A DNA stretch of 64,000 nucleotides from Ochromonas danica. Lineage: Eukaryota > Sar > Chrysophyceae > Chromulinales > Chromulinaceae. A program made the position numbers and the translations under genes. The stretch is taken from assembly GCA_015146655.1 (NCBI GenBank), contig VKHL01000054.1, positions 62,001 through 126,000 on the forward strand. The letters are read 5' to 3'. Positions within the stretch are counted from its first letter, which is position 1. Each line of letters opens with the position of its first letter. Positions 3,447 to 56,630 of the stretch are shown piece after piece. The notes below the pieces were generated by a model, which saw only the letters and a program-made list of their open reading frames with translations, was not told the origin of the DNA and ran no database searches.

Positions 3447-5993
3447 CAGGCCATGGCTTAGGCCATGCGGCCTGGCCTAGGCCATGAGTGAAGCTATGGG
3501 CTAGAAGATAAAGGTGACTTTGCTAACATGTATATTAATTGACATTTAAAGATAAGCATCAATTAGCGCTTAAAGATCTGTTAAGTCCATCACAACAGGT
3601 TCCCCAACTGGAACTGGAACTGGAACTGCAGCATTTGTTGATGATTGAATAACTCGCTTCTTTCCTTCCATGATTTCACGGAAAATCGAGACATCAAACA
3701 ATTTACCCATGCCCAGTTTATCCATAGCTTTCCAATTCACGACCCGATTTGCACTCTTTGACGAACTACTCTTTCTTAACCTATCTTTAACGTTTGGCGG
3801 ATCTTGAGAATCCTTCAAGATGTTTGTTCTATCCATTACACTGACACCACCTTCCGTTTTGAAATCTTCGTCAAAGAAGGAATCTGGCAGATCAGTTTCC
3901 TTGATTTCGTCTTCATCACACTCATCATATTCTACCTGATATTCACCTATGATTGACTTTAAAGGTGGATCAATTGGTTTGTTCATTTCCTTTCTAAGTT
4001 GGAATTGAACGATTCCACGTTTCTTCAATGTTTCGATAGACATCATTTGATTGCTAATCTCTGATTTTATCTGTTTTAAAGCAGAAAATGTTGATTCGGC
4101 AATAGCCGTTGATGATCGAACTTTGAATACTTCCAATACTAGTGGTTGTAAACCTAAAAAGTCATTAAAAGGTGTTGACCAGAAAGGATGTACAGCAAAT
4201 CCTTTCATTTCTGTGAAGATAGAGAAGTCCGATCGTAGATATTTGATAAGTGCTCCTTTACATTGTTCTGCATGAACTGTTGCAGATGTCCAGTTTAAGA
4301 TATTCACTGATGTCCATCCATGTTCAGTAACAAACGTATTGATTTGTTTTAGTACATCAACTTCTTGTTTTAAGTTGAATGACTTTGAAGAACGAGCAAC
4401 AGAGCAATATTTGGGATTTAATAGCAAGGCAAGCGTGAAGATGAAGTCACTAGTGTAATCTAATGCTCGTTGGAAGACAAATTCCAAGATTTTCTCAGCA
4501 AACTCAGTCGTCTCGACCCCTTCCTCACAAATAGCTTTCTTCAAGTAATAATCAATATGCAGAAAGCCAACAAAAATCTCATCAATCGTTGATGAACGTG
4601 TCTCGTTATGAGTCATGACAGTAATGATTGGATTGAGAATAATTGATAAATTATTATTCGAGTTATAGAAGTTATTGTTAGTCATGAGCTCTGAAAGCAT
4701 TCTTTCTTGACCATCAAGTGTAATCTTCTTGTCTTTTAATGACTGTGCGAATAAGGGTTGCTCTGTCAATTTTTGAATTCTAGTACTAAAGCTATTAAGA
4801 CCACGAACTAACAATCCTGCAGTGAACCATCTCCTATAGACATAGGCTATAAGATCATCTTTAATATTAGGATTGTTCTTTTTCTCCACTTTCATTTGAT
4901 AATTCCATCGATAAGAACGATGAATAAAGTTGACAATCGCACTAGAAGCCTTGAAAGTACTGACATATTCAGCAGTATTTACAATGTCACCAGTCAAGGA
5001 ATTGAACTTCTGTAGAGAACATGGAATACAAATTATTCTTCCATCACTATGAGATTTGAGAGTATCTCGTAAAGAAGTCATGATAGTAGGATTATCTGTA
5101 GTAAAGGCAGAAATAGCATCCCAAGTTAAATTAGCATCTTGTAAGATCTGTGAACACTTTTGAAATAATAACAATGTGTCAGCAGCACTACTGTAGTGTT
5201 TAGCATTGTTGGTGTAATGTGTTTCAGAAGGAACATCTAACAGATCGACAAAATATTCTGTTTCATTGTCAGCTAACATGAAAACAAAAATACCATTCTT
5301 CTTCGAAACAACATTATTATTATTATTATGATCATCAGAAGAAGAAGACCATCCACCATGAATCATCAAAGTGAGTCCTGTTCTTCCTGCTAATTCGTCT
5401 AATATTTGATTTCTCATGGTTGTATATATCTCATCAATCTCCATCTTTACTTTCTTATGGTCTGGTAACTCGATCTTATGATTTTCAAAGAAGGAACGGA
5501 AATATGGATTCTCATCAATCAATGCTCTTATTGATACATTCTGCAGGATTGCACCTTTTAATAGCAAATGCAAATCATCTCTTCCTAAAGCTTCAAAAGC
5601 ATTTCTTTTCTTCAACTCACTATTGCCAACTTTTCTTTCACTTCTTTCAAAATGTTGTTTTTGCTCTTTGGATAAGCTTTTACAATTTATAGCATGACTA
5701 GCACAGATTCCTAATTCACCTCTACATACATGACCACAACCACGACACTTTGCCATATATTTATTATTGTTTTGTTTCTTCGTAGTAGATCGAAGAAAAA
5801 CACGACCATATTTCCACCATGGTGCAATATCATCGGTAATAGTCTCTGGATCTTTCCAATCTTCAGAATAGTCCATCATTCTTTCAATTCAATTCAATTC
5901 TAATTTTATTTATTAGGAGAGAGTTGGGTTTGAAAATGAACGAAATGACAACAACTCTGGTCTAGGCCATGTGGCCTTGGCCCAATGGCCCCC
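3447..5993 (-). mobile_element. hAT-family DNA transposon with imperfect GGCC-rich terminal inverted repeats
   Basis: A single long transposase gene is flanked by related inverted sequences at about 3447-3486 and 5960-5993. Both ends contain GGCCAT, AGGCCA and GGCCTAG spaced alike when one end is reverse-complemented. The repeats are imperfect, so the exact termini and the expected 8-bp target duplication could not be fixed by eye. The element is about 2.5 kb. It sits between the TBC gene and the plastid ClpP gene, its right end only about 200 bp before the ClpP start codon. Confidence 0.7.
3570..5879 (-). CDS. hAT transposase, uninterrupted 769 aa
   Basis: The protein starts MMDYSEDWKDPETI and has an N-terminal BED-like zinc-binding region (KCRGCGHVCRG then CASHAINC, residues about 44-68). 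The middle contains FTTDNPTIMTSL and IICIPCSLQKFN, which resemble hAT catalytic-core motifs. The C-terminal region VLEVFKVRSSTAIAESTFSA is the hATC dimerisation signature with the conserved Glu. Length and single-exon structure suit an autonomous hAT transposase, which cuts and pastes its element between terminal repeats. No internal stop interrupts it, so recent activity is possible. The C-terminal tail after residue 640 is acidic and poorly conserved, ending in a PVPVPVG repeat. Confidence 0.82.
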   Translation of the reverse strand: MMDYSEDWKDPETITDDIAPWWKYGRVFLRSTTKKQNNNKYMAKCRGCGHVCRGELGICASHAINCKSLSKEQKQHFERSERKVGNSELKKRNAFEALGRDDLHLLLKGAILQNVSIRALIDENPYFRSFFENHKIELPDHKKVKMEIDEIYTTMRNQILDELAGRTGLTLMIHGGWSSSSDDHNNNNNVVSKKNGIFVFMLADNETEYFVDLLDVPSETHYTNNAKHYSSAADTLLLFQKCSQILQDANLTWDAISAFTTDNPTIMTSLRDTLKSHSDGRIICIPCSLQKFNSLTGDIVNTAEYVSTFKASSAIVNFIHRSYRWNYQMKVEKKNNPNIKDDLIAYVYRRWFTAGLLVRGLNSFSTRIQKLTEQPLFAQSLKDKKITLDGQERMLSELMTNNNFYNSNNNLSIILNPIITVMTHNETRSSTIDEIFVGFLHIDYYLKKAICEEGVETTEFAEKILEFVFQRALDYTSDFIFTLALLLNPKYCSVARSSKSFNLKQEVDVLKQINTFVTEHGWTSVNILNWTSATVHAEQCKGALIKYLRSDFSIFTEMKGFAVHPFWSTPFNDFLGLQPLVLEVFKVRSSTAIAESTFSALKQIKSEISNQMMSIETLKKRGIVQFQLRKEMNKPIDPPLKSIIGEYQVEYDECDEDEIKETDLPDSFFDEDFKTEGGVSVMDRTNILKDSQDPPNVKDRLRKSSSSKSANRVVNWKAMDKLGMGKLFDVSIFREIMEGKKRVIQSSTNAAVPVPVPVGEPVVMDLTDL

Positions 5994-6194
5994 ACCAGTC
6001 TTTGACATGTGGCCGCCTCCTTCTCTGTTGTTGTTGTTTGTGTTTCTATCACAAACGCGTTGTTTTGTCACAGTGGTTTGTTGTTATGGAAGGTGAGTGA
6101 GTGCAAGGCAGCAGTGAGTGATTTGCTTTGCTTTGCTTTGCTTTTGAGTTGCTTTGCTCCATCATTGACTACTTCTCTTGCTAGCTGTGGAACA
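5994..6194 (+). promoter_or_regulatory. ClpP upstream region with an ACGCGT site
   Basis: This is the short interval between the hAT right end and the ClpP start codon. It contains ACGCGT at 6055-6060 within AACGCGTT, a motif that recurs upstream of several other genes here. A CTTTG tandem run lies near 6124-6150. Any promoter function is inference. Confidence 0.4.
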
Positions 6195-7239
6195 ATGTTG
6201 ACATTGACTTTATTTCTTCTAGCTAGTCTATTTCTACATAGTACTACGAATGCATTTTCAATCTCTTCTTCTATTCCACGTATTCCTTCTACTATGACCA
6301 GGTAATAACAACGACACTCACCCTACCCTTAATGTTATTAATATTGTCATTATTATCAATACTAGACCTGGTGCCAGAAGCATGACTATGATGCCAATTG
6401 GTGTTCCTAAGGTTGCTTATAAAATGCCTGGCAGTCGTGGAGGAGAATGGGTTGATATCTATCAACGACTGACAAGAGAGAGAATTATCTTCCTTGGTTC
6501 TGAGATTGATGATGAGTTAGCCAATCAGATCATTGGTGTCTTATTGGTAAGAGATGTCATTCACTCTTTATTTAATTATTATTAATTAATTAATTAATTG
6601 AATTAATTGATGTTTAATGGCCTTATCTATGTTATGTGTTATTGTGTTGTGTTGTAGTATCTTGACAATGAGAACCCTAACCAGCCCATCTATCTTTATA
6701 TTAACTGTCCTGGTGGCAGTGTGATTGCTGGATTGGCTATCTATGACACCATCCAACACATTCGCTCTGAAGTCGTTACCATTAATCTTGGTCTAGCTGC
6801 CTCGATGGCTTCCTTTTTACTCTGTGCTGGTTCACGTGGTCGTCGATATGCTTTACCACATTCACGTGTTATGATTCATCAACCTATGGGTGGAGCACAA
6901 GGACAAGCTGAAGATATTCGTGTAGAAGCATCACAGATTATGAGGATAAGAAATAATATCGTTAAGATGTATTCTATGATGACTGGACAGACAGTTGATC
7001 AAGTAACAAAGGATTTAGATCGTGATAACTTCCTTTCCGCTGAAGAAGCTTTGAAATATGGAATTATCGATGAGATTGTGGAACCTAATGACGAAAAGCT
7101 GAAACTATTGGCTATGCCTCCTCCCAAATTATCTCCTAACTTATTGCCTAATGTTGTGGATGATAATTACGAGTTTGGCAAGATCAATGTACCCAAGGGT
7201 AGAACTGGAAGACCTTCTTCTAATTCTTATCGTCGCTAA
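6195..7239 (+). CDS. clpP: Plastid-targeted ATP-dependent Clp protease proteolytic subunit (ClpP)
   Basis: Exons are 6195-6301, 6366-6546 and 6658-7239, giving 289 aa. The second acceptor could instead be at 6377, which stays in frame. The start at 6195 gives [22 protein letters not shown], a signal peptide with an A|F cleavage site typical of complex red plastids, then a Ser-rich transit segment. The ClpP fold follows. The catalytic triad is visible: Ser in LAASMASF (about 145), His in VMIHQPMGG (about 170) and Asp in [12 protein letters not shown] (about 217). It should form the serine-protease barrel that works with Clp ATPases in the plastid stroma. The triad marks an active ClpP rather than a ClpR-type subunit. 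A 30-residue polar tail extends past the usual end. Confidence 0.9.
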
Positions 7240-33372: not shown

Positions 33373-36300
33373 TTACCATCCTTGTAAAGCGATGTCCAAA
33401 GCCTCGACAAAGAAGTCTGCATCTTCATGTGAGAAGTAAAGTGGAGGCTTTACCTTGAGGACATTGCTATAATCACCCGTATTGTGATCAATGACACCTA
33501 GTTCAAGCAGACGCTGACAGATCGCATAGGCTTCCTCTGTGGCTGGCTGCAGGCCATCACCACGCACCAATTCGATGCCTTGATAGAGACCATGCCCATG
33601 AATACATCCAATAATCTGGGGATGCTTCTTTTGCAAAGCAAGCAGCTTCTCATGAAGATAATCACCCACCGTGCGCGCATTCTCTTGTAAATTATCTTCC
33701 TGAAGCACATCAAGCACAGCGTCACCAACACGACAGCTAACGGGACCACCTCCAGCTGATGAAAAGAAAGATCCTTGTGCTGCTTGGAAATCAGCTACAA
33801 TGTCTTCACCAGTGATTACAAAGCCCAGAGGATGGCCATTACCCGCAGCCTTAGCCATGGTGATTAAATCTGGTACTACATCGTGTTCTTGGAATCCCCA
33901 AAACACATTACCAAGGCGTCCATAACCGACTTGAACTTCATCGCAAATACACAAACCACCTACTTCACGGACAGCTTCGTAAACCTCCTTAAGGTATCCT
34001 GCAGGAATGTCTACTCCACCAGCATTTCCTGACAGAGGCTCGGCAATAAAGACACTCGGAGGGGTATTTCTCTCAACTAAACTGACAATCTTCTCCTTCG
34101 CAAGTAGGGCATAGCGATGAGCAATCTCTTCTTCAGAGAGCCCCTGACCATGACGATAGAGACCTCGGAAAAGGTTTGGCATAGGAAGGAGGTGAATCCA
34201 GTCAGCACGCGTTTCAAGAGAGCGTGGATTATCATTTAATGTGGTTGAGACTTCATCCGAGGCCGTGGTAATACCATGATAACCCCCTGTGAGGCAGAGA
34301 GTGTGGCGATTTAAGGAAGATGCATATGCTTGACCCGCAGCTCGTGCACGACGTTCCGAAGCAACAGTTCTGGCAATTCGCAATGCCAAATCGGTTGCCT
34401 CACTGCCTGAATTAACCAAGAAGACCTTGTTGAGCTTTCCTTTACTGCGGATCGTCTCAGGAATGGTCTCCAGGATATGCTGGGCATAGCTACCCAAAGC
34501 TTGATAAAGAAAGCGAGAATTGGTATTCAATCTTTGCAGTTGTTCTTGCACCACCTGTTGCATTAAAGGGTGACAATGACCAAGAATGGCAACGTTGTTA
34601 ACTAAGTCCAAATAAGCACGACCTTCTGCCAGGTCATAAAGGAAAGTGCGATAACCACGTTCAATCTGAGGAGGGAGACGATAATAATGTTCCTGGCAAC
34701 GTGCTAGAGAGGTATTGCGCTGTTGTAGGATGACATCACGTACTTCCTCTCCATTTCCCCGAACAAGTTCCAAGCTATGTAGATTCTTGCCAGTTAAAAG
34801 AGCAGAGGCATTGAGAACAAAAGGTCTCCAAATAGGCCAACTTGTAGCTGTATGGAAAAGGGGTGGAATCCCAATAGCTGGCAGTGGGCCAACAGAAGAA
34901 GATCGACGGAATGCTTGCATCAAGACAATTTCTGCCTTCAAAGATGAGGAGGAGATAGGGGCTGAGTGAGTAGTGAGCCAAGGATGTACAATGGAAGATG
35001 GACCAGCCACGCGCAATGTCCATTCATTAAAATGAATATCGACCACCTTATAATCTTCAGAAATAAGCCAAGATTGCAACACGGGGTAGTTCGCCCAATC
35101 TTCTGTGATCAATACCTCCTCGACAGAGAGCAAATCACTCGGAAGAGACAGCGTAGTACCTGCAGGCAAGGCCACTAATGAAAATGAGGTGATCGTTGAG
35201 GGAGAGTCCAACGCGCGTGTCTTCGTAGCAAAGAACCATGAACTACCGCATTCCGTCGCTTTCAACCCCTCAGCACTGCTAAATAACGTATCACGTAGCT
35301 TCTTGAAGCAATCCACAGAGTCCAACCATTCTCCAGGCTGATAGAACAAGGAAAGTGGAGAGACATCCACAAAATCAAGAGAAGGAGCGGGAGCGTTGAG
35401 CATGACCCTTGATGGGCTAGCGATCAAAGGAGGAATGACGACGTGTCGGCCTGCAGCCTGCTTAACTGCCCCGATACCCACCATAAGAGGTATAGCAGTG
35501 ACCAAGAGAGCAGCATTTCGATTGTGTTGTGCTTCTTCTCGAAGATATTCATTACCTGGATCCGCTGCAAGCAATCCCTCCACAGCGAGATAGAGAGACA
35601 GAGTGCGTAAGACAATGAGTGGCCATAATGCCTCCACTTCAGCATCAAGCAATGGAGTCACCGAGACAAAACCTTGCAAGATATGTCTCAGATAGTAGAG
35701 TTGCTCAATGGGTGAGAGAGGTCCGCCATGACGAAGAGGTTTACTGATGAATGGCACAATTGCAATGGCCAATTCACCCACTAACCAACTCTCTGTAACA
35801 TCGCCAAAGTCAATGATACCTTTGGCATAAGGTTGTCCATTTGTTCTTTGCCCTGCCACCACATTATAAGGTGCAAGATCACCATGAACAAGTTGAACAC
35901 GTAGAGAGGGAGCAGAGGATTCCATAGAAGTAGCTACTTGCTTAATAATAGAAAGCCATTTCTCACGTTCTTCTTCACTTGATAAAGTTGGTAGATGCTT
36001 CTGACAAAGATTCACCGCATATCGTAAATCCCATTCTGATTGACGTCTTGGACTGGAAGAAGAAAGAGGATAGTCGTTTAAGACAAGACATAACTTAGCA
36101 ATCATTTCTCCAAAATGGGATAAAGTCTCTCTAGGATAATAGAGAAAGTCATCGAAAAGTTTTCCTGGGAGATAGGTTAAGAGATGTAAAGTATAAGGTT
36201 GACCTTGAATATCAATCTGTTCTACTGTAGTCTTCTCTTGATCATCAATACGTGGAATAGGAACAGGAAAGAGAAGTTCTTGACTGAAAGTTGTCTGTTG

Positions 36301-36609
36301 AAGATACTGTTTCACTTGATGTTGGAAATGAACATCTTCGATTGTCACAGAGGGATTAGTAAATTTGACAACATAGACACGATTAACAACATCTCTATCT
36401 TTGTTCACTTCATCCTCATTATGAATCTGAGTCAGAGGATTGGTATTGACTTGCTGATCAATAGAATCAGATAGAATAGGAGTGGTAGTGGTGTTGGTGA
36501 CAACTGTGACTTTATAGTTGAGATCTTGACAACTACCAAGAGAGGAAATTTTACTACCTTCTAGACCATAGTATTTCTTAACAAGTGAGAGTACTTCTGA
36601 AAGCATCAT
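33373..36609 (-). CDS. Fused APH-type kinase and class III aminotransferase (hydroxylysine/phosphoethanolamine-type)
   Basis: This is a single exon of 1078 aa. Residues about 1-330 are an aminoglycoside-phosphotransferase-like kinase: the Brenner motif LVHGDLAPYNVV (about 240) and the metal site IIDFGDVTES (about 264). Residues about 370-600 form an unassigned middle region; bacterial fusions of this layout carry an M23-like domain there, and VALPAGTTLSLPSD may be its eroded relic. Residues about 640-1078 are a class III PLP aminotransferase: NVAILGHCHP, VFLVNSGSEATDLALR, ICDEVQVGYGRLG and the PLP Lys in TMAKAAGNGHPLG (about 920). The human counterparts, hydroxylysine kinase and AGXT2-like phospholyases, are separate proteins acting consecutively on hydroxylysine or on phosphoethanolamine. 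One polypeptide could do both steps. Confidence 0.85.
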   Translation of the reverse strand: MMLSEVLSLVKKYYGLEGSKISSLGSCQDLNYKVTVVTNTTTTPILSDSIDQQVNTNPLTQIHNEDEVNKDRDVVNRVYVVKFTNPSVTIEDVHFQHQVKQYLQQTTFSQELLFPVPIPRIDDQEKTTVEQIDIQGQPYTLHLLTYLPGKLFDDFLYYPRETLSHFGEMIAKLCLVLNDYPLSSSSPRRQSEWDLRYAVNLCQKHLPTLSSEEEREKWLSIIKQVATSMESSAPSLRVQLVHGDLAPYNVVAGQRTNGQPYAKGIIDFGDVTESWLVGELAIAIVPFISKPLRHGGPLSPIEQLYYLRHILQGFVSVTPLLDAEVEALWPLIVLRTLSLYLAVEGLLAADPGNEYLREEAQHNRNAALLVTAIPLMVGIGAVKQAAGRHVVIPPLIASPSRVMLNAPAPSLDFVDVSPLSLFYQPGEWLDSVDCFKKLRDTLFSSAEGLKATECGSSWFFATKTRALDSPSTITSFSLVALPAGTTLSLPSDLLSVEEVLITEDWANYPVLQSWLISEDYKVVDIHFNEWTLRVAGPSSIVHPWLTTHSAPISSSSLKAEIVLMQAFRRSSSVGPLPAIGIPPLFHTATSWPIWRPFVLNASALLTGKNLHSLELVRGNGEEVRDVILQQRNTSLARCQEHYYRLPPQIERGYRTFLYDLAEGRAYLDLVNNVAILGHCHPLMQQVVQEQLQRLNTNSRFLYQALGSYAQHILETIPETIRSKGKLNKVFLVNSGSEATDLALRIARTVASERRARAAGQAYASSLNRHTLCLTGGYHGITTASDEVSTTLNDNPRSLETRADWIHLLPMPNLFRGLYRHGQGLSEEEIAHRYALLAKEKIVSLVERNTPPSVFIAEPLSGNAGGVDIPAGYLKEVYEAVREVGGLCICDEVQVGYGRLGNVFWGFQEHDVVPDLITMAKAAGNGHPLGFVITGEDIVADFQAAQGSFFSSAGGGPVSCRVGDAVLDVLQEDNLQENARTVGDYLHEKLLALQKKHPQIIGCIHGHGLYQGIELVRGDGLQPATEEAYAICQRLLELGVIDHNTGDYSNVLKVKPPLYFSHEDADFFVEALDIALQGW

Positions 36610-50735: not shown

Positions 50736-51266
50736 GATTGATTGGTATCTATCTATCTCTATCTCTTGTTGATGGATCGAAACTGCTCGTTTCCAACCGT
50801 CTGCTCAGACAAGTAGGACTTCTACTACCACAAAACATGACTTTTAAATCCTCAATTATAACTTGGCCGAAAATGGTGGTGGTCTTTGTTTTGTTGGGTT
50901 AAAGGTTAAAGTGGTTAGTCTGAGGTTAAATATTGTATGCAATATTGCTATGAATCTTTTGAAGAAGTACAATCCATAATATGTTAATCACAAAAGCAAT
51001 CACAATCATCAACCATCCTTTCCATTCAAACTTTCGAATTTGTTGATCAAGCTTTGCTCGAATATCTGACATCTCCCACTTCGTTGTTCCTACATTAGAT
51101 ACATATGCATTACCAAGTTGAGGTCATTTATGGTCATTAGCTAGCAATTGATTCTTACCTGAAGGGGAGAAACAACAGCATTCAATATCAACTCCTGCTT
51201 GTTGCTTCAAGTATGAATAACAGATTGTAAAGTAGGTTTTGTTATGGTATAACTTACAATATAGAC
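50384..51266. repeat. Left copy of a duplicated gene A / gene B junction
   Basis: Three blocks match sequence to the right: 50384-50470 with 55396-55466 (gene A intron 1 and exon 1 edge), 50728-51209 with 55475-55945 (spacer plus last exons of gene B), and 51208-51266 with 59180-59238 (inside gene B exon 1, one visible mismatch). From about 50890 to 51209 I find no difference between the copies. Confidence 0.9.
50926..51209 (-). pseudogene. Duplicate 3' tail of gene B (last exon, last intron, part of exon 7)
   Basis: 50926-51089 is an apparently identical copy of gene B exon 8 (55662-55825), encoding WEMSDIRAKLDQQIRKFEWK and the final membrane helix. 51159-51209 copies part of exon 7. The rest of the gene is missing, so this is a fragment rather than a working copy. 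Confidence 0.85.
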
Positions 51267-51272
51267 AATAAC

Positions 51273-53693
51273 TTACAGCCCAAAGCGTTGCGCTAACACA
51301 ACTTTATTATTACCAGCAGTTTGCTTCATTGTATCTGGAATTCGCTGAATGAGATTCTCTTTCACGTCGTCAGGGAATTGTTCAAGCCCAGACACTTTTT
51401 TCACAAATTCCTGGGGATAAGTTGGGACGATATTCTTGATATCGTTTAGATTTGAGCCAATAGCCCGTAATGTCTCTGGATGAGGATGACCATGTGTCTC
51501 TGAATTGCAATTCGTACTAACGACGAGGTAATCACAGCTAATGCGATCAAGAAACTTTTTTGGGTGGTTATTTTCAGAACCATGATGGGGCAAATGAACA
51601 TAGTCGAAATAAAATCGGGAGCTAATTTCTTTACTTGGAGGCCCTTCTTCAAAACTTGTTTTTAACTCTCGCGAGGCATTGATTTTCGTAATCTGAGGCC
51701 TTCCTTTAAAAATAGTTTTGGACCCTGTCAAGGTATTGCTTTTCCTAATCGGAGACGCCCCCACAAAAGATGTTTGAAACTTTTCCAAGGCATTAATAAT
51801 ATCAGATCCATCAGCATCGCCAGAAAACAAGCAGGTTTTCAGGTAATCAGGCCTTTTAACATCTTGCATCATCATAATTGTCACAATACCCCATTTGTTG
51901 ATGGAAGTTAATTTTTTAATCGTAATATCACGAGCTTTATAGTCCTCATCAGCCTTCTTCAGCATTTCAGAAGACTTTATTAGATCCTCTTCAAGAGGCA
52001 ATAAACAAAAGACCGTGATATAAAAGCCATTGCAAGGAAGCTGAATATAATCAAAATTAGAACTGTAAACAGCAGTTTCTTCCCAACCTTTCCGAGTAAC
52101 AATGTTTTGCTCCTTCTGTTTATCTAAAATTCCCTTAGCCAGCTCACCTACTAAATTAGCTTGCGCACGAGTTCGTGTCAGTCTAACAGTTTGATCCTCC
52201 TGAGATGTAGCGACGGAATCAACAATAACATTATAAATGTAAGGATGCTTGGAAATATTCTTTGCTTTCCACTGAAAGAAGGATTGAAGTCCATTCACAT
52301 GGTCGCCATCACCATGGGTAAGAAGAATTAAATCAATTGAATACAAAGATTTCACATGATCCAAAAAGCATGGCGTGAAATTATTGCCACCATCAATAAG
52401 AATATTCATTTCGCCAAATTTTAACAAAGTACAATCACCACATTCAGCTTGCATAGGAATCACAGTAACATCCTCAAAACTCTCAGTTGAAAGCTCATCA
52501 TCCTGGGAATCATCCCACTTCGAAGCCACGTTTTCAGAATAGTCACTTAGATGGTATGGCTGCCTCCCACGAGTTGAGTCTATTGGAAGTAGAGGAAGAA
52601 GACCTTGATCGACAGACAAGCCCGGAAAATATTCTTGTAAATGACCATGAGCGTCAAGAACTCCAATAGAAAGGAATATCAATTCAAAATTATCAAACTT
52701 CAAAAATGAATGGCGAAACCAGTGATTGTTACCGTCTTTAGGACAAATTACTAGTTTCAAAAAACGTTTAAGTAAGTCACTTCGGTATCCAAATTCAATA
52801 TCATCTTTCAGTAAATTAAATTCTTCTTTTGTCAACAACGCCACTCCACCGCACTTTTCCGGTTTAGGTGCAAAAGTTGTCTCATAAAGTTCAATAATAG
52901 AATCAAGAGTTGAATGATTGGATTTGTCTTCTGAGATGAGAGAACACATTAGGAGGGCGTAACAACAATTTAGAATAATTCTGCCAATCTGAACTTTCGC
53001 ATTTTTACAGAGGTGTTTCACCTCTACAATATTAAGCGTTCCATCTTGCAAATACAAGTTTCCGTGGGAACAACCATGTCCACAATAAACAAAGAAATAA
53101 TGCGCGTCGAATGATTTTTCCATCATTGTCTTGAAAGCACTAACTGTTGGAGATACAAGCAACGTATAACGCAACGTGAAGTTTGAAGTGCTTCTGTTCA
53201 CAATTATTGGATAATTGAAATCGCGAAGGTCCTCCCCTTCCATGAATTGAAAGAACTGTAGTCTTTCCATAAACATCTGTTTGACATATTTATCAACATC
53301 ATCAAACCGCAAAACGCTGTCCACAGAACGCAAACATACTAAGGCATCATTAAGAAGATATGGATAGAGCTCCAACTCGGCAGCACCAAGAACAATAAAA
53401 ACTGAATAGACATTATGATGGGAAGAAAAGAATGATTGCTCTTTTGACGGACCAAAAGTGTTAGACTGTATTTGGTTGGAATACCGAGGGAGGAAAGAAG
53501 AGTATAATTGCTCTTTCGACGGACCAAAATTATTAGACGTTATTAATTCCTCTAATTTAACGAGTCGCGAAAGTATGTGGTGATTAATTTGGTTTTGGTC
53601 TGAATTGTCAATATCGAATTCGGTCATCAACACGGCTTGGACTTTTTCATCAGCTGTTCCATCATCTTCAACGACGGGGGAAGGTTCGTACAT
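51273..53693 (-). CDS. Caspase/CHAT-like plus ComEC-type metallo-beta-lactamase fusion protein
   Basis: This is a single exon with no intron. I place the start at 53693 (MYEPSPVVEDDGTADEK, 806 aa), since the 69 residues before it come from AT-rich non-coding-like sequence. Residues about 185-260 resemble a caspase/CHAT protease: YFFVYCGHGCSHGNLYLQDG (His about 204) and GRIILNCCYALLM (Cys about 242). Residues about 435-770 are a metallo-beta-lactamase of the ComEC/Rec2 type: GDCTLLKFGEMNILIDGG, LLTHGDGDHVNG (about 462), CLFSGDADG, VHLPHHGSENNHPKKF (about 702) and ETHGHPHPETLRAI (about 735). Two in-frame tandem duplications lie inside it. The combination recalls bacterial conflict or regulated-death proteins. 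Role and origin are inference. Confidence 0.72.
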   Translation of the reverse strand: MYEPSPVVEDDGTADEKVQAVLMTEFDIDNSDQNQINHHILSRLVKLEELITSNNFGPSKEQLYSSFLPRYSNQIQSNTFGPSKEQSFFSSHHNVYSVFIVLGAAELELYPYLLNDALVCLRSVDSVLRFDDVDKYVKQMFMERLQFFQFMEGEDLRDFNYPIIVNRSTSNFTLRYTLLVSPTVSAFKTMMEKSFDAHYFFVYCGHGCSHGNLYLQDGTLNIVEVKHLCKNAKVQIGRIILNCCYALLMCSLISEDKSNHSTLDSIIELYETTFAPKPEKCGGVALLTKEEFNLLKDDIEFGYRSDLLKRFLKLVICPKDGNNHWFRHSFLKFDNFELIFLSIGVLDAHGHLQEYFPGLSVDQGLLPLLPIDSTRGRQPYHLSDYSENVASKWDDSQDDELSTESFEDVTVIPMQAECGDCTLLKFGEMNILIDGGNNFTPCFLDHVKSLYSIDLILLTHGDGDHVNGLQSFFQWKAKNISKHPYIYNVIVDSVATSQEDQTVRLTRTRAQANLVGELAKGILDKQKEQNIVTRKGWEETAVYSSNFDYIQLPCNGFYITVFCLLPLEEDLIKSSEMLKKADEDYKARDITIKKLTSINKWGIVTIMMMQDVKRPDYLKTCLFSGDADGSDIINALEKFQTSFVGASPIRKSNTLTGSKTIFKGRPQITKINASRELKTSFEEGPPSKEISSRFYFDYVHLPHHGSENNHPKKFLDRISCDYLVVSTNCNSETHGHPHPETLRAIGSNLNDIKNIVPTYPQEFVKKVSGLEQFPDDVKENLIQRIPDTMKQTAGNNKVVLAQRFGL
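51637..51807 (-). repeat. Three 57-bp in-frame tandem repeats within the MBL domain
   Basis: Units 51637-51693, 51694-51750 and 51751-51807 share AGGCMTTC/AAAA...GTTTT...AAGGYATT...CTAATC in register. They encode three 19-residue units (INALEKFQTSFVGASPIRK, SNTLTGSKTIFKGRPQITK, INASRELKTSFEEGPPSKE). Divergence is high, so the expansion is old. Confidence 0.75.
53399..53542 (-). repeat. Two 72-bp in-frame tandem repeats in the N-terminal region
   Basis: The sequence ATTGCTCTTTYGACGGACCA recurs at 53435 and 53507, an offset of 72 bp. Each copy encodes FGPSKEQ with related flanks (SNNFGPSKEQLYSS and SNTFGPSKEQSFFS). Confidence 0.8.
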
Positions 53694-55945: not shown

Positions 55946-56542
55946 CTAAGGCACGTAATGTGGTACCTTCCTCATCACAATCACTCACACATTGAAAAAC
56001 AGGTGGCGAGAGATATCTCCACAATATATGAACAAGACCTTTCAATAAGAGAATCCTATACAAAGACATGAGAATAAAGTCTAAGGAATAAAAAGCAAGA
56101 TTGAAAGGGGGAGATGAAAGTACCTGGAAAAGTTAAGAGTGAGATAGACCAAAATAGCTAAAGTAGTTTGTAATAGATAAGAATTCCAAAACCACTCTAC
56201 CATACAGGAACATGAATCATTGACAGAATGAAGTATACTCTCATTTGGACCTTCACATGTTGGAGAGCAGGTAGCTAGGTTAGAACAATTGAATAGTGCA
56301 GATGATGCCTGACCCATTAGTGCATTACTGACAATGGAAGAAGAGGTAGAAGAGTTGACATCATTATAGGAGAGTATCAAAGAATTTGATAATGATAGAT
56401 GTGATGATAGAGTCAAATTGCAACTATTCATCCAGTTGGTGTATTGTAAACTGATCTGACTAGGACACTGTTCATACAAATAGACACACACACACAGACA
56501 CACACACACAGACACACAGACACACACACACACAGACACACA

Positions 56543-56630
<88 letters not shown>

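Follow-up and report, generated by a model that had tools for sequence, protein, structure and literature searches.

A 64,000-nucleotide stretch of the Ochromonas danica contig VKHL01000054.1 (hereafter the window) carries a gene that joins a caspase-like domain to a metallo-beta-lactamase (MBL) domain in one uninterrupted reading frame 806 codons long. This frame lies on the minus strand at positions 51273-53693, with its ATG at 53693 and an in-frame TAA at 51273-51275, and it contains all the motifs that an original prediction, made from the DNA letters alone, had named: VYCGHGCSHG, ILNCCYA, LIDGG, THGDGDHVNG, SGDADG, PHHGS and GHPHPE. The gene had also been called intronless, which has to be amended: the gene model of EukProt (P0002, 847 amino acids), a letter-for-letter match to a three-exon splicing of this locus, has two more exons at the 3' end, which are small like the two introns before them, the frame itself being one long exon (Table 1). 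The TAA that ends the unspliced frame, whose 806-residue product is here called P0001, sits within the GTAAGT donor. The guanine-cytosine content of the gene is similar to that of the window (0.383 vs 0.398), and a 145-bp AC dinucleotide repeat lies upstream at window positions 56484-56628. The use of another acceptor would give an alternative third exon with a hydrophobic C-terminal tail; its hydrophobicity is reached by 32 of the 643 open stretches of at least 40 amino acids in the window and is therefore weak evidence, and the stretch is a possible tail anchor or a possible separate small gene.

Table 1. Features of the gene, in window positions (pLDDT, predicted local distance difference test).
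Feature	Position	Strand	Basis or remark
Exon 1, coding part for the caspase-like and MBL domains	51277..53693	-	805 codons and two bases when spliced; unspliced frame continues to the TAA
Caspase/legumain-like (clan CD) domain, residues 91-361	52611..53423	-	predicted models
His206 of YCGHG, predicted catalytic	53076..53078	-	kept in 11 of 11 members
Cys244 of NCC, predicted catalytic	52962..52964	-	kept in 11 of 11 members
MBL domain, residues 405-803	51285..52481	-	profile matches and predicted model
HxDxDH metal motif, residues 460-465	52299..52316	-	conserved in family alignment
First insert region, residues 494-547, candidate gate	52053..52214	-	pLDDT below 50 at 494-505 and 529-547
GDADG with Asp626, predicted metal ligand	51807..51821	-	family alignment
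Very-low-pLDDT insert, residues 645-690, from GDADG to PHHGS, putative role	51624..51761	-	predicted model, motif spacing
PHHGS motif, residues 702-706	51576..51590	-	family alignment
GHPHPE motif, residues 735-740	51474..51491	-	His736 in 7 of the 9 members with letters there
Intron 1, 72 nucleotides, GTAAGT...AG	51205..51276	-	EukProt model, P0002 reproduced exactly
Exon 2, small	51159..51204	-	EukProt model
Intron 2, 69 nucleotides	51090..51158	-	EukProt model
Exon 3, EukProt reading, ending ...SLINKFESLNGKDG	51009..51089	-	EukProt model
Alternative exon 3 (other acceptor), candidate hydrophobic C-terminal tail GWLMIVIAFVINILWIVLL; third-frame stretch reads MSDIRAKLDQQIRKFEWKGWLMIVIAFVINILWIVLL	50926..51078	-	weak basis

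Protein searches identified ten more proteins with the same caspase-like plus MBL layout (P0003, P0004, P0005 and P0025-P0031), among them one from Paraphysoderma sedebokerense (P0031), which we take to be a blastoclad, that is a zoosporic fungus, and one from EukProt (P0029). A further protein search brought in no new member. Four of the ten (P0003, P0025, P0026 and P0027) are mutually close, and each lies on a contig of its own, 0.33-0.88 Mb in length. In the alignment of 11 rows the members are 21-25% identical to P0001, yet His206, Asn242, Cys244, Asp434, His460, Asp462, Asp464 and His465 are kept throughout, and Asn599, Asp626, His703 and His704 in all ten members with letters there. The key His/Cys pair and the metal residues are thus kept across a diverged family, and the motifs are not due to chance. 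The ten MBL domains of the family form one branch of the tree (support 97/99; 100/99 without MAP1S); P0027, which ends inside the MBL, was excluded from the MBL sets, P0031, which is C-terminally short, was retained, and a remote viral MBL, L002, was left out of the second tree. The presence of a fungal member with the same layout suggests an old family rather than a fresh bacterial gene. Between its two halves P0003, alone among the 11 aligned proteins, has a hydrophobic membrane-like stretch (residues ~395-440).

Clan CD cysteine peptidases have an alpha/beta fold in which the His follows one core strand and the Cys follows the next. The predicted model of P0001 agrees with this rule, strand 198-204 being followed by His206 and strand 236-242 by Cys244, and all 50 matches listed by VIA-align for the predicted N-terminal domain alone belong to clan CD by entry title. 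In predicted fold and in His/Cys placement the algal protein therefore resembles legumain, caspases, MALT1, GPI8 and CHAT; it differs from them in that Pfam lists no Peptidase_C14 or CHAT match for P0001 up to an E of 1. The caspase/CHAT-like nature that had been proposed for this half is accordingly upheld by the predicted fold and not by the profile check. Other observations also speak against the assignment: the mean pLDDT is low (62 in the full model, 67 in the domain model), and in the E-ordered Foldseek search with the domain-only model unrelated G-proteins lead (template modelling score ~0.2, root-mean-square deviation (rmsd) ~10-18), with MALT1 at rank 5 (prob 1.00, rmsd 4.3). Raptor_N was matched weakly in four members, with a best E of 0.029, under the cut-off. 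Elsewhere in the host assembly (31.2 Mb, 337 contigs) a profile search gave no Peptidase_C14 match, which leaves absence unproven because introns split genes.

The MBL half is matched in all 11 members by the LmuA, RTasMBL and Avs1a models, which lead for P0001 and represent MBL nucleases of the Lamassu, DRT and AVAST systems, and the ComEC_Rec2 model matches four members at E up to 0.01. In profile-profile comparison the family MBL aligns with gated bacterial MBL nucleases at 4.6e-40 (profile built from 10 of 15 bacterial rows) and with ComEC at 3.4e-29. Sequence kinship to nucleases of the Avs1a/LmuA/HamM type is thus found throughout the family, and P0001 scores 62.5 bits on the Avs1a equivalog NF041809 against a curated NCBIfam cut-off of 420. 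The bacterial nucleases differ in being encoded by separate genes, often beside a trypsin-like protease. With ComEC the algal MBL shares the HxDxDH...GD...HHGS motif set; however, P0001 has no Pfam match to the channel or OB domains of ComEC (PF03772, PF13567), and the family MBL falls outside the ComEC branch (support 100/99). ComEC as the nearest relative is disfavoured by the profile scores; the tree alone does not decide, as it does not show the family and the gated rows as sisters (p 0.12 for the alternative). What had been predicted as a ComEC-type MBL is hence an MBL with intact metal motifs, and not ComEC in the narrow sense, while the suspected kinship with bacterial conflict systems is borne out for this half by the profile matches to gated nucleases. 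We hold with great confidence that the two domains are a caspase/legumain-type fold and a gated-nuclease-type MBL.

Motif spacing gives a further comparison. From HxDxDH to GD there are 157 residues in P0001 and 119-221 in the ten members measured, compared with 90-117 in the five usable of six ComEC rows and 158-221 in all seven gated bacterial rows. From GD to HHG there are 80 in P0001, against 28-29 in the usable ComEC rows and 24-33 in the gated bacterial rows. In the P0001 model pLDDT falls below 50 at residues 494-505, 529-547 and 645-690. Against a general reading of these stretches as gates, the range among members means that the first is in some of them hardly longer than in ComEC, and the long GD-to-HHG insert occurs only in P0001 and P0029 among the ten measured. 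For the ComEC set P0009, P0012 and P0014 were dropped, the start pattern being absent, and P0015-P0024 were left out; some distances for P0003, P0006, P0008, P0013 and L002 are pattern artefacts, and the GD position of P0008 and L003 was set by reading.

Tuck et al. showed that gated MBL nucleases are held shut by two disordered inserts that a partner protease cuts, and the same article describes Canu (CanABC), a bacterial caspase-activated gated MBL nuclease with separate genes for the caspase CanA, for CanB and for the nuclease CanC (PMC12799240). The algal protein likewise combines a caspase-fold peptidase with a predicted MBL nuclease that falls into the same broad group by sequence, and its MBL half has low-confidence inserts; it differs from Canu in being eukaryotic and a single polypeptide, both domains lying in one frame, whereas Canu has separate genes and CanB. 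From the gated-nuclease precedent, the motif spacing and the low-pLDDT inserts together, we propose that the fused peptidase opens the fused nuclease.

In such a scheme a clan CD cysteine peptidase, fused ahead of a metal-dependent MBL nuclease of Avs1a/LmuA/Canu type, would by analogy with Canu be turned on by a trigger or by oligomerisation, and would cut the disordered inserts, either in its own chain or in one next to it. The MBL site so opened would then cut nucleic acid, probably when the cell responds to stress or a virus or enters cell death. For the algal protein, cleavage, nuclease action and a role in defence are all what we infer from the bacterial analogy, and a single-chain caspase-activated pro-nuclease working like Canu, with MAP1 as its enzymatically dead relative, is a proposal to which we give an even chance.

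Other pairings of proteases with this type of MBL were also observed. Five of 15 plasmid matches were inspected, and they include one S8 peptidase plus MBL locus (L022) and one Canu-like locus on a Sinorhizobium americanum plasmid, in which genes for a caspase, a hypothetical protein and an MBL stand in a row (L019, 1531-5008). In L018 (3989-8948) and L021 (3992-8960) MBL genes of the group lie directly upstream of genes of an ABC-three-component system. P0007, a protein of 1108 amino acids, has an MBL fused to a subtilase and is another protease-MBL fusion. The scan of genome contigs returned one ComEC-like locus only. A viral origin was considered and rejected, the scan of viral contigs having returned a single remote MBL (L002); on that contig a 442-residue MBL frame is found near a caspase-like frame on the opposite strand (4910-6238 on the plus strand; 1384-2775 on the minus strand), together with a long helicase-like frame, the caspase-like and helicase-like calls having been made by eye.

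The main result of this analysis, absent from the original prediction, is a relationship of the family with MAP1 (MAP1A/B/S and futsch; PF25281, PF23415). With the whole model of P0001, the best Foldseek match in PDB is mouse MAP1S (E 3.4e-8, prob 1.00; next match at 9.5e-4), in an alignment of 757 columns with gaps on a 558-residue chain, a length that the MBL by itself could not account for; with an rmsd of 16 overall, the two structures cannot be overlaid as a single body. Mouse MAP1S also comes first in PDB for the 11-row profile, at 4.8e-8, just above a ComEC-type chain at 6.4e-8. The Pfam model MBL_MAP1B (PF25281) matches all 11 members, four of them above the cut-off, with P0001 at 37.9 bits against a cut-off of 37.6. 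In profile-profile comparison the family MBL aligns across the heavy-chain part and the light chain, at 7.2e-18 for the two joined; taken separately, the heavy chain scores 2.4e-14 and the light chain 3.6e-5. For the joined chain the values are 3.2e-11 with the profile of gated bacterial nucleases and 1.4e-6 with ComEC; against the light chain by itself the gated profile reaches 1.3e-7, better than the family MBL. The light-chain region, corresponding to the C-terminal half of the MBL, was aligned by hhalign at 4.2e-6, and none of 200 shuffles reached the real score. These MAP1 profiles mix mouse letters with human sequences that were not taken from a database record; the mouse letters alone, searched by hmmsearch with one target each, gave 4.7e-14 for the MBL part of the heavy chain and 5.6e-4 for the light chain. 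MBL domains in MAP1A/B/S have already been published (PMC11377751). In the open-access literature we found no published connection between MAP1 and either gated nucleases or a caspase-like domain.

A number of observations weigh against this relationship. With a 4-row profile ComEC chains lead in PDB and MAP1S is third at 5.5e-5, and P0001 alone finds MAP1S at 0.11, behind Apyc1. In three other structure searches, MAP1S is not among the 50 matches listed. In the trees MAP1S falls either with the family (support 90/98) or with S8-associated and other bacterial MBLs (83/91), and none of three other groupings tested is rejected, among them one that unites the family, ComEC and MAP1S to the exclusion of the bacterial rows (p 0.12); its place being unstable, no claim here rests on it. 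As for the N-terminal half, hhalign aligns the caspase-like domain with the MAP1 N-terminus at 0.0039, a weak score even if none of 200 shuffles is as high, and the mouse letters alone give a weak 0.023. The caspase-like profile scores slightly better on the MAP1 light chain (0.0019) than on the heavy chain (0.0072), and when the two are joined the light chain again takes the best alignment, so that a link of this half to MAP1 is not established by sequence alone. MAPB1_N (PF23415) was matched weakly in one of the 11 members (E 0.21), and in the weak alignment of the N-terminal halves the His of GHG is absent from MAP1 and the Cys position is unaligned. Taking all this together, we consider it very probable that the MBL half is akin to MAP1, and for the N-terminal half we lean modestly towards such a kinship.

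MAP1S reads THAGADS for THGDGDH, LFPGRT for LFSGDA and PGGG for PHHG; it has thus lost most metal ligands (HAGADS, PGRT, GGG), and from these letters its MBL looks enzymatically dead. The algal family differs in keeping the ligands and in having at most ~50 amino acids in the loop where MAP1 has its long insert, the same loop that holds the insert at residues 645-690 of P0001. Animal MAP1 may represent a branch of this architecture that is enzymatically dead and has been split by a long insert, lying in the loop ahead of PHHGS, in which case its heavy and light chains would be two halves of one MBL fold. Tentatively, and as something we find possible though doubtful, neuronal and axonemal MAP1 might go back to an ancient effector of eukaryotes, related to the immune pairs of bacteria, that united caspase and nuclease in one chain, with both active sites lost, the heavy/light split being a relic of proteolytic gate opening and the algal protein a surviving active form.

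An alternative is that the algal protein is an axonemal or cytoskeletal structural protein, a counterpart of MAP1S/FAP312 of the central apparatus, whose active-site residues are non-catalytic remnants. MAP1S is indeed the best structural match of the whole model, the gene is the only PF25281 match in the host genome among those listed, radial-spoke and Cluap1/IFT38 proteins are encoded in the same genome, and published work locates MAP1S to the central apparatus of sperm, with FAP312 of Chlamydomonas given as its homologue (PMC12297659). Nevertheless, the peptidase and metal residues are invariant at so low an identity to P0001, which counts against a dead enzyme since such an enzyme would not need them, and MAP1S itself has lost most of its metal ligands. 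We therefore regard a structural role as unlikely; the member from zoosporic Paraphysoderma fits either an enzyme or a structural protein.

It is likewise rather improbable that the two domains have separate targets, a housekeeping MBL hydrolase acting on RNA, lipid or a cyclic nucleotide being fused to a caspase-like peptidase for which it is no substrate. The predicted MBL fold does match phosphorylcholine esterase and RNase J/CPSF73, although a fold shows no substrate, and the best PDB match of the single sequence P0001 is Apyc1 (E 0.003). However, the leading sequence models are protease-paired nucleases, and in P0007 and L022 a different protease accompanies this type of MBL. Finally, a recently acquired bacterial gene, in line with the transfer that had been suggested originally, or an assembly contaminant might account for the long uninterrupted frame and the bacterial kinship of the MBL, but is highly improbable given the 3' introns of the EukProt model, a base composition like that of the window, ten same-layout proteins as nearest relatives, one of them fungal, with their MBLs in one supported branch, and searches with P0001 that found nothing on plasmids and, in phages, a single short match.

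Caspase-activated MBL nucleases were described from bacteria in 2025 as separate neighbouring genes. A eukaryotic one-chain form would make the pair self-contained, and in algae and fungi it would be a candidate effector of cell death or of defence against viruses. Should the link to MAP1 be right, the conserved ends of the MAP1 heavy and light chains would each supply half of one MBL fold, probably with a dead caspase-like domain in front of it, and microtubule proteins of an important class would have a testable origin. What is new is the single-chain eukaryotic form and the bridge between bacterial caspase-nuclease defence and MAP1.

Concerning the host, its genome gave 47 matches to the chlorophyll-binding family and contains one silicon-transporter-like gene which, with the radial-spoke and IFT genes, fits a plastid-bearing, ciliated alga, probably a stramenopile; P0001 matches only itself in this genome among the matches listed. 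Pfam was run on 10 of the 21 other window frames of at least 250 amino acids, and seven of these ten neighbours were matched, including a serine hydroxymethyltransferase, a glutamine synthetase III, an aminotransferase and a trypsin-like protein. The window also contains, at 33373-36609 on the minus strand, a single frame of 1078 amino acids that combines an APH-type kinase domain with a class III aminotransferase.
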